Source: Solidesulfovibrio sp. (GTDB lineage Bacteria; Desulfobacterota; Desulfovibrionia; Desulfovibrionales; Desulfovibrionaceae). Taken from it: a stretch of 64,000 bases of DNA. A program made the translations under genes and the position numbers. The stretch covers positions 1 to 64,000 of the forward strand of contig NZ_JBCFBA010000019.1 of the NCBI RefSeq assembly GCF_038562415.1. The letters are read 5' to 3'. How positions within the stretch are numbered: the first letter of the stretch is position 1; every line of letters begins with the position of its first letter. Under the pieces are notes generated by a model. The model was not told the origin of the DNA. It searched no databases and saw only the letters and a program-made list of their open reading frames with translations. Shown in pieces: positions 42,739 to 47,753 of the stretch.

Positions 42739-44505
42739 CTAGGCCGCCCAGGATCCCGACGGCCCCAGGCGGGCGTCGATTTCCCGGGTCTTTTCCAGCA
42801 CCCGGCGCCGGATGGCCTGGAACTCCGTCAATTCCTTGACTCCGTAGTGGGTCCGGGTCTGGATGATGCCGGCCAGGTCCATGATTTCGTTGTAGATGTA
42901 GGGCAGGTACAGCGGATCGTGGCGCAGGAAGAACTGGATCTGGGACAGGAGTTGGTGGATCTCGGCCTGGTGCTTGCGGGCCTTGCGGACGAGCTTTTCC
43001 AGCCGACGGGTGGCGTTGGCCAGGGATTTGGCCCACTCGCCGGCTTTTTGCGAGAAAACCGGCCGCACCCGGGGGCCGGCCGCCCGGCCAAGCGCCTCCA
43101 GGAACACCCGCCGGGCCGCGCCCTGGCCGTCGAAAAAGCCCGGCGCCGCCAGATCCTCGGGCGTGATGTTGACCGCGCCCTCGATGACCGCCCCGTCGCC
43201 GTAAAGATTGTAGAACCGGGCTCCGCTCGCGGCGATGTCCCGTTCCATGTCGCGCTTGGCCGCCAGGAAGGCCATGTCCGTGCGGATGGTTTCGCCGTGG
43301 AGGTTTTGCAGCGTCGCCTCGGACCGGGCGTCCGACCGTCCGGGGCTGGCGTTGTGGTGGCCCGGGGCGTGGGTGGAGTCCCCGGACCAGGCCAGGTCCT
43401 GGCCCACCAGCACGAAACGCCGGGCTCCGGCCCAGGTGAGGAAGCGCTCCAAGGTCACGCCCACGTTGCCCCCGGCGTCGAGCACCAGTTCCTGGTCCTT
43501 GAGCACGTAGGTGGCCAGGCCGCCCTCGGTCCAAAGCGGCAGCCGCGGCCCGGGATAGCGGGCCACCACGCCGGGCTGCATCTTGGTGGAATAAAGCAGC
43601 GGGATGTCGGCGGCGAACGACGGATCGCGCAGGTTGTCGATGCCAAGGCCCGTGACCGGGCCGTAGTCGATGGCCAGGCACAGGTGGGGCTTGAGCCCCA
43701 AGCGTTCCAGGGCCGGCAGGGTCTGCAAGGCCGTGGCGAACAGGGCCTTGTCCCGGTAGGGCGCCAAGGCCGGCCCGAACCGGGCCAGGGACGGGCCGGC
43801 CCCCAGGATCACCACCGTCAAATCCTTGGCCGCGCCGGCCACGCGCAAAAGGCTCCCGTCCTGCATGGCTCGGGCGTAGTTGTGCAGCTCGTTGCCGACC
43901 ATGACCTCCTGCTTGAAACGCAACGTGGACAGTTCCACGCCGAGGCTTTCGAGCCTGGCCCGCACATGGGCCGTGGCCCGGGCGTACTGCGGCCCCAGTT
44001 GCAGGCTCGGCCCGTCGGCCCGCAGGTTGATGCGGGCGTACAGGAAGCTCACGTCCAGGCCAAGCAGGGCCTGTTCCACCACCTGCTTGTCCGGCGGCAG
44101 AAATTGCAGTTGCCCCGAGGCCAGAAACGGCCGGTAGTCCGTTTGGCTTAAGCAGGCCAAAAGCATCTCGGGCAGCGGCTCGATGACCAGGATCTTGTGG
44201 GAGGGCGGCACGCCGGTCAGCACGTGGTTGAGGCCGTAGCCCAGGGCCGTGCCGATGATGACCGTGGCGCCGCCGGGGAGTTTTTCCGTGGGCCGCCAGT
44301 CCCGGTAGTGGGCGGCCGGCGGGAGGGCCTCGAAAAGGCCCCGGCCGTCGTCCATGCGCCAGTCCAGGCTGCCGTGGCGGTTTTGGAAGATGCGGGCATA
44401 GACGTCTTCGGGGCTGGGCGAGCCGCCGGCCAGCCAGCGGGCGGCCGGCGCGCCGGATCGGGCCAGGGCCATGAGGTTGTCGGCCAGAAACGAGGTGCTT
44501 TGCAT
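42739..44505 (-). CDS. DUF115 / motility accessory factor-type glycosyltransferase family protein
   Basis: This 588-residue protein starts at ATG 44505 after AAGGACGG. A variable N-terminal half (with GGATVIIGTALGYGLNHVL and KILVIEPLPEMLLACL) precedes the DUF115 core. That core has VVILGAGPSLARFGPALAPYRDKALFATALQTLPALERLG, LCLAIDYGP, and RFVLVGQDLAWSGDSTHAPGH. A helical C-terminus follows (about 480-588). The family includes Maf flagellin glycosyltransferases and MptE-like enzymes. No flagellar gene is nearby. It is divergent from the cysteine synthase fusion across a 120-base gap. Confidence 0.8.
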   Translation of the reverse strand: MQSTSFLADNLMALARSGAPAARWLAGGSPSPEDVYARIFQNRHGSLDWRMDDGRGLFEALPPAAHYRDWRPTEKLPGGATVIIGTALGYGLNHVLTGVPPSHKILVIEPLPEMLLACLSQTDYRPFLASGQLQFLPPDKQVVEQALLGLDVSFLYARINLRADGPSLQLGPQYARATAHVRARLESLGVELSTLRFKQEVMVGNELHNYARAMQDGSLLRVAGAAKDLTVVILGAGPSLARFGPALAPYRDKALFATALQTLPALERLGLKPHLCLAIDYGPVTGLGIDNLRDPSFAADIPLLYSTKMQPGVVARYPGPRLPLWTEGGLATYVLKDQELVLDAGGNVGVTLERFLTWAGARRFVLVGQDLAWSGDSTHAPGHHNASPGRSDARSEATLQNLHGETIRTDMAFLAAKRDMERDIAASGARFYNLYGDGAVIEGAVNITPEDLAAPGFFDGQGAARRVFLEALGRAAGPRVRPVFSQKAGEWAKSLANATRRLEKLVRKARKHQAEIHQLLSQIQFFLRHDPLYLPYIYNEIMDLAGIIQTRTHYGVKELTEFQAIRRRVLEKTREIDARLGPSGSWAA

Positions 44506-44625
44506 GGGTCCGTCCTTGGGCTCGATGGGGCTCGGAAAGCAATAATCCTGCCAGGCTTGCCGGTCAGCCGTTTTTTGCCTACCACGAACCGACCGGGATA
44601 CTGGCATTTCATCTGCGAGGCATGC

Positions 44626-46929
44626 ATGATCCACGACAACGTCCTTTCCCTGGTCGGCGGCACCCCGCTCGTGCGGCTTTCGCGCCTCTGCCCCAACCCG
44701 GCCGTGACCCTGGCCGCCAAGGTGGAAATGCGCAATCCCGGCGGCTCCATCAAGGACCGGGTGGCCCTGGCCATGATCGAGGCGGCCGAACGGGCCGGGG
44801 AGCTTGTCCCCGGCCGCACCGTCATCGAGGCCACCTCCGGCAACACCGGCATCGGCCTGGCCATGGTCTGCGCCGTCAAGGGCTACAAATTGAAGCTCCT
44901 CATGCCCGCCTCGGCCTCGGAGGAACGCAAGCGCATCATGCGGGCCTACGGCGCGGAAATCGTGCTCACCCCGGGCAACCTCGGCACCGACGGCGCCATC
45001 GAGGAGGCCTACCGCCTGGCCCGGGAAGAGCCCGAGACCTACGTCCTCATGGACCAGTTCAACAATCCGGCCAGCATCGAGGCCCACTACGCCGGCACGG
45101 CCGAGGAGATCTTCGCCGCGACCGGCGGCGCCGTCACCCACGTGGTGGTCGCGCTGGGCACCTCGGGCACGGCCATGGGCCTGGTCAAGAAGCTCAAGGA
45201 ATTGAATCCGGCCGTCAAGGTCGTGGCGGTGGAGCCCAACCCCGGGCACAAGATCCAGGGGCTCAAGAACATGCAGGAGTCCTATCCGCCGGGCATCTTC
45301 GACAAAAAGGCCCTGGATGCCATCGTGCCCGTGGAGGACGAGGACGCCTTTGCCATGGCCCGGCGCCTGGCCCGGGAGGAGGGGCTGTTCGTGGGCATGA
45401 GCGGCGGGGCGGCGGCCGCCGCCGCGGCCGAGCTGGCCGCGGCCCTGCCCGCGGGCCTTGTCGTGGTCATCCTGGCCGACGGCGGCGAACGGTATCTCTC
45501 CACCACGCTTTTCGCCGCGCCCGAGAAAAAGGGCGTGGCCCTCGGCGGCGTGGGCGCCGCCGAGCCGGTCTACCTCGACCCGGCCGGGGCGGCCCCCGGG
45601 CTTTTCACCTTCGGCCCGCCCCTGGCCGAGCCCGGCGACCTGGACGCCTGGCGGCGGGTGGTGACCCTCGACGTGCTGCGCCGGGCGCTGGCCCGGGGCG
45701 GCGCCCGGCCGACGTTGGCCGTGGGCCTGGCCGACCTGGAGGACACAAGCCTGGAGGCGGCCCGGGCGGCGGGTACGCCCTGCCGTCGGTTCGCCGCCGA
45801 GGCCCGGGACACGGTGGCGGCCATGGCCGCCTCCCTGGGCGTGACCGGCGCGGTGTTCCCCCTGGCCGGCGAATGCCTGGACGAGGCCCTGGCCATGACC
45901 CGCAAGCTCCTGGGCAAGGGCCTGGCCTACGAGAAGCTGCGCAGCGTCTATTTCGACGTGGCCCGCGACAAGGCCTACGGGGGGCTGCTCGGCCTGGACA
46001 TGACCAAGCTGGCGCTGGGCAAGACCGTGGACCTGCTGGCCTACACCAAGGACAATCCCCAGGATTTCACGCTGCTTAAGCGCGTGAGCCTTAAGGACCT
46101 CAAGGCCGGCGACGCCCTGTCCACGCCCTGGGGCAACGTGCGGCCGAGCTGGTTTTTGCAGATGGCGGCCACGGCGGCCAAGGCCTTGCCGGCCGTGACC
46201 GTGGTCGTCACCGACGAGGACAAGGTCTTTCCGCACCTGGAAAACCTGCGGGCCATCTGGTCGGTGGGCGCCGGCGTGTGCCCGGCGGCCTGGCTGGTGG
46301 GCGGGCGGGTTTCGACCCGGGAGGGCGAGGCGGGCCTCGGCGCCGGACTGGCCGGCTGCCTGGCCCTGGGCGTCCATCCCCTGGCCGTGCGGGCCTGGCT
46401 GCTCTCGGCGAGCTACAAGAAACCCCTGGCCGCCGCGGCCGAGGCCCTGCGCATGTGGGAGAAAAACCGCAACCGCGTCCAGGAGTTGGCGGCCAACCTC
46501 GGCCTCGTGCCCGAGGCTTCCGGCGAGCCTGCCGCCGCGGTCGCGGCCGAGGCCGAAGGGCTCGGGGAGACGCTGCGCGAGGCCGTGACGGACGACCTGA
46601 CGCTGTCGCGGTTCTGGCCGCGCCTGTTCGCGTTTTGCCGTTTCGCCAACGGCCTGCTGTCCACCGGCCGGCTGCGCGGGCCGGACGCCGCCCGCCTGGG
46701 CCGGGCCCTGGGCGAGGCCGACGCCGTGCTCGGGCTTTTGGACCCGACCCGGCTGCCCGTGGCCAAGGCCGACTGGCCGGCCGAGGCGGCCAGGCTCGTG
46801 GCCGAGCGCGTGGCGGCCAGGCAGGCCAGGGACTTCGCCCGGGCCGACAGCCTGCGCGCCGCCATCGAGGGGCTCGGCTACCGCCTGGAGGACGCCGCCG
46901 ACGGGTTGCGCCTGTTCCCCCTGGGCTGA
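44626..46929 (+). CDS. Cysteine synthase fused to a degenerate cysteinyl-tRNA synthetase-like domain
   Basis: This 767-residue protein starts at ATG 44626 after GCGAGG. Residues 1-300 are a complete PLP-dependent cysteine synthase with PLP lysine Lys43 (NPGGSIKDR), SGNTG (71-75), GTSGT and C-terminal GMSGG. Residues about 320-767 follow the layout of CysRS. FTFGPPLAEPGDLDAWRR replaces CGPTVYDxxHIGHAR, and DVLRRAL, DFTLLKR, TPWGNVRPSWFLQMAA, FPHLENL and a C-terminal ARDFARADSLRAAIEGLGYRLED follow. The HIGH motif, the KMSKS motif and three of the four zinc ligands are lost (only His537 remains), so it cannot charge tRNA by the usual chemistry. I infer a sensory, regulatory or channelling role. 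A methyltransferase gene follows after 11 bases. Confidence 0.9.
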   Translation: MIHDNVLSLVGGTPLVRLSRLCPNPAVTLAAKVEMRNPGGSIKDRVALAMIEAAERAGELVPGRTVIEATSGNTGIGLAMVCAVKGYKLKLLMPASASEERKRIMRAYGAEIVLTPGNLGTDGAIEEAYRLAREEPETYVLMDQFNNPASIEAHYAGTAEEIFAATGGAVTHVVVALGTSGTAMGLVKKLKELNPAVKVVAVEPNPGHKIQGLKNMQESYPPGIFDKKALDAIVPVEDEDAFAMARRLAREEGLFVGMSGGAAAAAAAELAAALPAGLVVVILADGGERYLSTTLFAAPEKKGVALGGVGAAEPVYLDPAGAAPGLFTFGPPLAEPGDLDAWRRVVTLDVLRRALARGGARPTLAVGLADLEDTSLEAARAAGTPCRRFAAEARDTVAAMAASLGVTGAVFPLAGECLDEALAMTRKLLGKGLAYEKLRSVYFDVARDKAYGGLLGLDMTKLALGKTVDLLAYTKDNPQDFTLLKRVSLKDLKAGDALSTPWGNVRPSWFLQMAATAAKALPAVTVVVTDEDKVFPHLENLRAIWSVGAGVCPAAWLVGGRVSTREGEAGLGAGLAGCLALGVHPLAVRAWLLSASYKKPLAAAAEALRMWEKNRNRVQELAANLGLVPEASGEPAAAVAAEAEGLGETLREAVTDDLTLSRFWPRLFAFCRFANGLLSTGRLRGPDAARLGRALGEADAVLGLLDPTRLPVAKADWPAEAARLVAERVAARQARDFARADSLRAAIEGLGYRLEDAADGLRLFPLG

Positions 46930-46940
46930 GGCCCGGCGCC

Positions 46941-47753
46941 ATGACCGCCTCTCTGGCCACGGGGTTCGCCGGCCTCGACCGCGAGGACGACCAGGCTCCC
47001 TTTGTCGCCTGCCTGCGCCTGCTCGGCCGGCTGCCGGGCATGGCCGCCATCAAGGCCGAGACGCTGGCCCGCCTGGGCCTGGCCCCGGGGATGCGCGTCC
47101 TGGAAGTGGGCTGCGGCCTGGGCGTGGAAGCGGCGGCCATGGCCGGGCGTGTCCGTCCGGGCGGCCTGGTCGTGGCCCTGGACGCGAGCCTGGGCATGCT
47201 GTCGCGCCTGGAACCGTCGAGCGTGCCCGGCGCGGTGCGCGTCCCCCTGGCCGGCGACGCCACCCGGCTGCCGCTGGCCGACGCGAGCTGCGACGCCTGC
47301 CGGGTGGAGCGCACCCTCCAGCATGTGGCCGACCCGGGCGCGGCCCTGGCCGAGATGGCCCGGGTCACCCGTCCCGGCGGCCGGGTCCTGGCTTTGGAGC
47401 CCGACTGGGGCACCTTCGTGTTCGATTCCGGGATGCGGGAGACGGCCCGGGCCGTGGGCGAGGCCTGGTGCGACAGTTTCCGCTCGGGCTGGGTCGGCCG
47501 CCGGCTGCCCCGGCTCATGGCCGAGGCCGGGCTGACGGTTGCGGCCGTTTCGCCCCGAAGCCTCGTTACGCGGGACCTGGCCGAAGCCGAGGCCGTCTAC
47601 AACCTGTTGGCCACCGTGCAGCGGGCCGTGGCGGCCGGGCGCCTGGATGCCTCGGCCGGCGCGGCGTTGGCGCGCGAGCAGCGCCGCCTGGACGCCGCCG
47701 GCCGCTTTTTCGCCAGCCTGACCTTTTTTCTGGTCGAGGGCGTCAAGGCCTAG
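46941..47753 (+). CDS. Class I SAM-dependent methyltransferase
   Basis: This 270-residue enzyme has the SAM-binding motif VLEVGCGLGVEAAAMA (motif I) and VVALDASLGML (acidic end of strand 2). LAGDATRLPLADASCDACRVERTLQHV and RVTRPGGRVLALEPDWGTFV follow, typical of UbiE/Coq5-like small-molecule methyltransferases. Substrate unknown. It begins 11 bases after the cysteine synthase fusion, so it is probably co-transcribed. The 3' end overlaps the convergent NlpC-like gene by 11 bases. Confidence 0.85.
   Translation: MTASLATGFAGLDREDDQAPFVACLRLLGRLPGMAAIKAETLARLGLAPGMRVLEVGCGLGVEAAAMAGRVRPGGLVVALDASLGMLSRLEPSSVPGAVRVPLAGDATRLPLADASCDACRVERTLQHVADPGAALAEMARVTRPGGRVLALEPDWGTFVFDSGMRETARAVGEAWCDSFRSGWVGRRLPRLMAEAGLTVAAVSPRSLVTRDLAEAEAVYNLLATVQRAVAAGRLDASAGAALAREQRRLDAAGRFFASLTFFLVEGVKA

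Follow-up and report, generated by a model that had tools for sequence, protein, structure and literature searches.

One example of an aminoacyl-tRNA synthetase paralogue attached to amino acid biosynthesis is HisZ, which does not adenylate and mediates feedback inhibition; the available passages of a review of synthetase paralogues give, besides HisZ, two paralogues of cysteinyl-tRNA synthetase (CysRS), namely MshC, a working ATP-dependent ligase, and CysRS* of the Desulfobacterales, which is without the anticodon-binding domain and charges SelC* (PMC9437257). The gene considered here lies in a stretch of 64,000 nucleotides from Solidesulfovibrio sp. (contig NZ_JBCFBA010000019.1, positions 1 to 64,000; hereafter the window) and encodes a CysM-type cysteine synthase fused to a CysRS-like half. 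The aligned motifs support the view that this CysRS module has lost its aminoacylation motifs, and the end of the protein expected to read the anticodon is retained. Tentatively, we take the product to be a synthase independent of serine acetyltransferase (SAT), most likely using O-phosphoserine, and gated by tRNA-Cys through the fused pseudo-CysRS.

The fusion resembles the HisZ-HisG pair in that each has a non-adenylating synthetase paralogue attached to an enzyme that makes the same amino acid, and on its missing adenylation motifs and this attachment it would fall with the HisZ type. However, HisZ is a separate regulatory subunit, whereas the dead class I synthetase of the fusion is covalently joined and keeps its C-terminal tRNA end. 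MshC is likewise a CysRS paralogue with a non-translational role, but it is an active ligase, and the match of a genuine CysRS to it (3c8z, 8hfm; 413-414 amino acids) spans query residues 70-380 of 540, the reverse of the pattern in the fusion. CysRS* is a CysRS paralogue of the same broad bacterial group, but whereas it charges SelC* in the absence of an anticodon-binding domain, the fusion possesses the C-terminal module but no catalytic motifs. Thus, the fusion shows the opposite of the pattern of MshC and CysRS* (C-terminal domain absent, catalytic motifs kept). On the synthase side, CysM and O-phosphoserine sulfhydrylases are alike in the pyridoxal phosphate (PLP) lysine, the substrate loops and the best sequence matches in the PDB, but the matched CysM chains, of about 300 amino acids, have no synthetase half, and the substrate of the fusion is putative. 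The SepRS-SepCysS system, whose proteins are unrelated to those of the fusion, also couples tRNA-Cys to the making of cysteine, but SepCysS was over its cut-off in none of the 27 genomes searched, with weak matches in 24 (SepRS was not searched for). No description of the fusion was found among the titles, abstract beginnings and passages covered by the literature search, with subscription journals and preprints mostly outside that coverage. As far as the available parts of these sources go, a paper on class I synthetase-like proteins discusses MshC as well as a gene for cysteine synthase close to a MetRS-like gene, not the fusion (PMC2922099), DVU0663 of Desulfovibrio vulgaris is named cysK (PMC3431258), and genetic work on Desulfovibrio vulgaris Miyazaki F deals with homocysteine, not the fusion gene (PMC5764234).

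A preliminary description of the window, made from its letters, had proposed that one gene carries both a cysteine synthase and a CysRS-like domain, and a single open frame of 767 residues does encode the two halves:

44626..46929 (+): whole gene, a CysM-type cysteine synthase and a CysRS-like half in a single open frame of 767 amino acids
44647..45477 (+): cysteine synthase half (PALP), residues 8-284; Pfam, E 1.8e-71
44752..44754 (+): codon of the PLP-binding lysine 43, present in 157/157 family members
45247..45297 (+): substrate loop HKIQGLKNMQESYPPGI, residues 208-224, located by alignment to 2v03
45568..46926 (+): CysRS-like half, residues 315-767, from Pfam, phmmer and the structure model

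The CysRS likeness of the C-terminal half was confirmed. The Pfam family of the CysRS catalytic domain, tRNA-synt_1e, matches residues 339-562 (E 6.2e-22, 78.8 bits, cut-off 27), and phmmer aligns residues 25-455 of E. coli CysRS with this half at E 2.1e-22. NCBIfam cysS matches residues 342-762, nearly to the end of the protein, at 95 bits and thus far under its cut-off of 340, as expected of a diverged full-length CysRS. In line with these results, the full-length fold of CysRS is present in the predicted structure: ranked by E-value, the PDB chain that best matches the AlphaFold2 model of residues 306-767 (pLDDT 94.4, pTM 0.93) is chain B of 1u0b, a CysRS complexed with tRNA-Cys (E 1.5e-24, 465 columns, TM-score 0.72, root-mean-square deviation 6.8). 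The tRNA-free forms of CysRS and MshC rank after it, with fewer columns and smaller deviations, and the top rank of 1u0b may simply reflect a more ordered chain in that entry. The named strong matches in the viral structure search were also synthetases.

The fusion forms a conserved family in the phylum of the window. Sampling covered this phylum (297 genomes drawn evenly) and the phylum of one further genome described below (199 genomes); in the former, a match to the CysRS-like half with an E-value no higher than 1e-40, in an open frame of at least 704 residues, was obtained in 107 of the 297 genomes, one of which is the window's own. A scan of named genomes returned at least 80 loci matching most of the protein, mostly in sulfate-reducing and related Desulfobacterota-type organisms by record title, and among the matches listed the best-segment identity to the window's protein is 76-84% for named Solidesulfovibrio loci and 85% for Desulfovibrio sp. 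DV. Sixty regions and seven further loci from the 107 positive genomes were used, and the final alignment holds 157 non-identical members and 15 genuine CysRS from the same phylum, duplicates and damaged rows having been removed. Specifically, a 95-member set omitted L001 (a genuine CysRS), L002 and L006 (the window itself), L022, L041, L074, L076 and exact duplicates; five duplicates were removed in building the 157-member set, L145, which stops at a contig end, was not added, and L192, whose frame is broken, was excluded from counts over 156. Family models used 84 of the 157 members. Apparent deletions in L074 and L076 proved to be runs of unknown residues, hence the omission of both loci. 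The PLP lysine, already noted as kept in the window, is present in all 157 members; therefore each aligned member is a fusion, and with so many non-identical members the fusion is not a chance product. A fusion is carried by the cultured relative Solidesulfovibrio alcoholivorans (L037) and also by Thermosulfurimonas dismutans (L110), whose copy has the zinc set. In L041 (G013:C5) and L192 (G072:C1), one of them in a single-contig assembly, the fusion frame breaks near residue 545, through either sequencing error or decay. One fusion, L103 (G355:C8:155206-156513), lies in a genome labelled Pirellulales that gave no separate full CysRS match. The planctomycete spread that it suggested was rejected, L103's own genome being the only positive among the 199 of that phylum; mis-binning, transfer or incompleteness is possible.

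The idea that the fusion replaces CysRS was also rejected. The preliminary description had called for a check for a separate functional cysS, and a genuine CysRS does occur elsewhere in the window's genome (G000:C2:203912-204808, 441.6 bits). A separate CysRS is present in 77 of the 80 fusion genomes examined, and charging in those genomes thus does not require the fusion; the three others (G012, G049 and G050) are assemblies of 490, 240 and 490 contigs. In two of the 77 the separate CysRS (G163:C11:33273-34211 and G219:C1:2515083-2516024) scores about 320 bits, vs 426-481 in the 75 others, and is perhaps of a different CysRS type.

Comparison with the 15 genuine CysRS located the motifs that the fused module has lost, as follows:

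45610..45612 (+): lost zinc ligand 1, F329 in place of Cys
45637..45648 (+): degenerate HIGH site, DLDA, residues 338-341, near the family-specific R344
46162..46164 (+): lost zinc ligand 2, M513 in place of Cys
46234..46236 (+): kept zinc ligand 3, H537
46246..46248 (+): lost zinc ligand 4, L541 in place of Glu
46303..46335 (+): place of KMSKS, eroded, residues 560-570; KMSKS pattern in 0/157 members

The proposed loss of HIGH holds, the aligned residues being DLDA and not LDAW as had been read. KMSKS is lost as well, its position in the window being an alignment gap with RVSTREGEAG nearby, and three of the four zinc ligands are gone as described. Conservation of HIGH and KMSKS in homologues, the observation named beforehand as one that would speak against a dead module, was not found in the aligned sequences: HxGH occurs in a single member (L176) and KxSKS in 0/157, and all four zinc ligands in 63/157, each of these sets being present in 15/15 genuine CysRS. 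No member has two or more of the three strict sets together, and among 156 members scored for the HIGH histidines, 36 keep only the first, 18 only the second and 101 neither. A FastTree phylogeny of the domain, with the root placed on genuine CysRS, groups 156 members in a single clade that excludes the 15 CysRS, and parsimony on this tree places the zinc set at the family root with five later changes, and HIGH as already broken at the root. Hence it seems that ATP chemistry was lost first and the cysteine pocket later, the window's lineage included, an order of losses inferred by parsimony on a tree whose deep nodes are weak.

A different picture emerges at the C-terminus, where the module is retained, and in the CP1 region, where the family has residues of its own:

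46078..46134 (+): family-specific CP1 segment KRVSLKDLKAGDALSTPWG, residues 485-503, defined by conservation in the family
46807..46893 (+): retained C-terminal module, residues 728-756 (R728, R732, F737, D741, R744, D756; pattern RR[FWY]DRD), the expected anticodon reader

By the phmmer alignment, R423, R427, W432, D436, R439 and D451 of E. coli CysRS correspond to these six residues in order. The pattern is exact in 147/157 members, the window included, and in 15/15 genuine CysRS; eight members have K or Q at the second place and two are incomplete, one of them the frame-broken L192, and position 737 is aromatic in 156/156 members scored. According to the available parts of one source, the strong identity elements of tRNA-Cys are the anticodon G34C35A36 and U73 (PMC9976931). 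Retention was also measured over six regions, by counting how many of the residues invariant in genuine CysRS are found in at least 90% of the family: the N-terminal catalytic region keeps 8/35, CP1 14/32, the second catalytic region 9/33, the KMSKS/stem region 2/20, the helical region 1/10 and the C-terminal region 6/11, the highest share of the six. In the CP1 segment, R486, L489, L492, K493, G495 and T500 are kept in at least 95% of members and differ from genuine CysRS, three of them facing gaps there, and R344, beside the old HIGH site, is present in 157/157. By their conservation, the CP1 cluster and R344 may mark a site for a ligand or for contact between the domains. In the 84-member alignment, the invariant charged residues include R344, K475, R486, R589, R728, D741 and R744. 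This pattern of losses suggests that the function common to the family is tRNA reading rather than cysteine binding or ATP chemistry. Of the sensing options first raised for the domain, tRNA-Cys is the one favoured by the retained C-terminal residues; direct sensing of cysteine is plausible in the 63 members that have the zinc set but, going by the zinc site, unlikely in the window's own protein.

The synthase half is best matched in PDB sequences by the CysM entries 2v03, 2jc3, 2bhs and 2bht, and it scores 357 bits with NCBIfam cysKM, over the cut-off of 344.15, and 347.7 with the cysM equivalog, under the cut-off of 394.2. The label CysM-type rests on sequence, since the top structural match of the full-length model is a CysK, 2q3b. 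In the loop HKIQGLKNM, K214 is invariant in 157/157 members, at the place of R210 in CysM 2v03; the matching arginine of mycobacterial CysM presumably serves the use of O-phosphoserine. According to the available parts of one paper, there are cysteine synthases that use O-phosphoserine, but the CysM of Campylobacter accepts O-acetylserine only (PMC9855970), and CysM likeness thus does not settle the substrate. An extra cysK/M-type match is present in 54 of the 80 fusion genomes, all 54 of which have a SAT match of at least 143 bits; the fusion is the sole cysK/M-type match (E 1e-60) in the other 26, none of which has a strong SAT match (none at 1e-20 in 22, weak matches of 82 to 120 bits in four). 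Strength here is relative, the SAT family's own cut-off being reached in 0/80 fusion genomes and 8/14 control genomes, and the Fisher p of 1e-21 applies to related genomes, some of the 26 being fragmented (G012 and G049 also lack a separate CysRS). The window's genome belongs to the group with an extra match, having a canonical CysK (C2:297611) with a SAT (C2:298924), another CysK (C7:85353) and a second SAT (C23:48540). This pattern (0/26 vs 54/54) implies that the synthase of the fusion need not depend on O-acetylserine from SAT; probably it needs no SAT at all, and O-phosphoserine, the simplest alternative, is probably its substrate. SAT, which had been put forward as a possible partner, is unlikely to be required, with 26/80 fusion genomes having neither a strong SAT match nor another cysK/M-type match.

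Taken as a working mechanism, the synthase half would make cysteine without SAT, most likely from O-phosphoserine and sulfide, and the pseudo-CysRS would be a built-in control domain that lost ATP-dependent activation of cysteine early and kept the C-terminal end that reads the anticodon of tRNA-Cys. By binding tRNA-Cys, it would make synthase activity follow the supply of (uncharged) tRNA-Cys, which would be a direct read-out of the cysteine demand of translation. The ancestral domain could also have bound cysteine via the zinc site, and the window's lineage, having lost that site, would rely on tRNA alone.

Several observations weigh against gating by tRNA-Cys. The enrichment of invariants in the C-terminal region (6/11 vs 34/130 in all other regions together) is not significant (Fisher p 0.075), p falling to 0.006 only against the two weakest regions, chosen after the counts were known; CP1 keeps 14/32, and the helical region, expected to lie alongside the tRNA, only 1/10. 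Thus, the argument rests on the identity of six near-exceptionless residues and not on enrichment, and these residues could be kept for folding instead of anticodon contact. Moreover, that this module reads the anticodon in the E. coli CysRS:tRNA-Cys structure 1u0b is something we take as given. The ATP site is unevenly eroded, with KMSxS surviving in 23/157 members, the family node of the domain tree has a support of 0.575, and several of its deep nodes are weakly supported. In the full-length model (pLDDT 93.0, pTM 0.72) the halves are well predicted and their relative placing is less certain. The comparison with MshC is a weak control when taken alone, since matches to the CysRS of Plasmodium and Borrelia (9yru, 3sp1), which presumably charge tRNA, also end at residues 360-367. 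The distribution is patchy, 190/297 genomes of the phylum having no fusion at the E 1e-40 threshold, among them all 7 of the genomes listed for one genus of the same family as the window. As regards the substrate, canonical SerC is over its cut-off in 7/26 fusion-only genomes and in only 4/14 controls, so the supply of O-phosphoserine is putative; cysteine uptake or another route is possible in the 26 genomes.

The main rival to tRNA gating is a HisZ-like cysteine sensor: free cysteine would bind to the domain, which would then exert feedback control on the synthase, and tRNA would play no part. HisZ offers the precedent of feedback inhibition by a non-adenylating paralogue, at least in the available passages on it (PMC9437257), and the zinc set that would form the pocket is complete in 63/157 members and placed by parsimony at the family root. 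However, 94/157 members do not have the full set, and its presence declines with likeness to the window: 58/81 members below 45% identity have it, 4/21 at 45-50% and 0/54 at 50% or more (window counted), whereas the C-terminal module is kept in 147/157. As an account of the whole family cysteine sensing is thus unlikely; it could hold for the members with the zinc set, where both ligands may act.

Further behind, and rather improbable, is a scaffold or channel, in which the domain would dock tRNA-Cys or genuine CysRS and pass newly made cysteine to charging. The retained C-terminal module and the separate CysRS in 77/80 genomes agree with such a role, but channelling between separate proteins needs contacts that are not visible from sequence data, and no linkage to cysS can be seen. 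Across 116 fusion loci no neighbour gene is common, the most frequent, a thymidylate kinase-like protein (named by eye), lying just upstream in 14/116, followed by a 331-residue protein mostly downstream in 13/116. Operon clues to function were therefore discarded as unusable.

No better are the prospects of a structural relic, in which the CysRS-like half would have no ligand and would serve only to stabilise the synthase or bring about its oligomerisation. Although its catalytic motifs are eroded and cysteine synthases of about 300 amino acids function without such a partner, the charged residues invariant in the 84-member alignment and the family-specific CP1 segment would be difficult to account for if there were no ligand or interface.

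Residual aminoacyl ligase activity, in at least part of the family and with changed motifs, is very unlikely. In its favour, L176 has HLGH, and KMSRS occurs in 15/157 members (the window not among them), each of which also has the first histidine of HIGH and eight of which have the full zinc set; yet L176, either a reversion or an early branch, has RTSKA in place of KMSKS and one broken zinc ligand, no member has two strict sets, and the window has none. Most improbable of all is tRNA-dependent synthesis, a second SepCysS-like invention in which the substrate of the synthase would be a seryl derivative attached to tRNA-Cys on the dead domain, since, despite the kept C-terminal module and 26 fusion-only genomes with neither a strong SAT match nor SepCysS over cut-off, a protein in which both HIGH and KMSKS are broken would not be expected to charge tRNA itself, 77/80 genomes have a genuine CysRS and free O-phosphoserine is a simpler substrate.

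Two CysRS paralogues met in the survey, L207 (G192:C61) and L208 (G354:C32), are encoded in open frames of 423 and 476 residues and retain intact HxGN and KMSKS motifs; judged by eye, both stop before the C-terminal anticodon module and have two zinc positions changed. They may be CysRS* proteins, fitting the published description, and no tRNA gene was found in the available stretches around them. By their motifs, these two proteins and MshC look like the mirror image of the loss and retention pattern of the fusion.

Around the fusion gene itself, a class I methyltransferase gene (window 46941-47753, + strand) starts 11 bases downstream and is possibly cotranscribed with it; it is not among the frequent neighbours listed for other loci. 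Upstream, on the opposite strand, lies a gene with an MptE-like domain (PF01973; window 42739-44562, - strand, start provisional).

These results point to a cysteine route independent of the acetyltransferase in the 26 of 80 fusion genomes in which the fusion is the sole cysK/M-type match. The graded decay of the CysRS-like half, with the ATP site lost throughout, the cysteine pocket in part and the tRNA end hardly at all, makes the order of losses testable. HisZ is known as a synthetase-like regulator in the form of a separate subunit, in the passages available (PMC9437257); a dead cognate synthetase fused to a synthase, with the anticodon end retained but catalysis and part of the amino-acid pocket gone, would be a metabolic tRNA sensor. 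Perhaps, then, and put more cautiously than the gating of the synthase as such, about one third of the sampled Desulfobacterota-type genomes may carry, in a single polypeptide, a biosynthetic enzyme gated by its cognate tRNA, which would couple cysteine output to translational demand.

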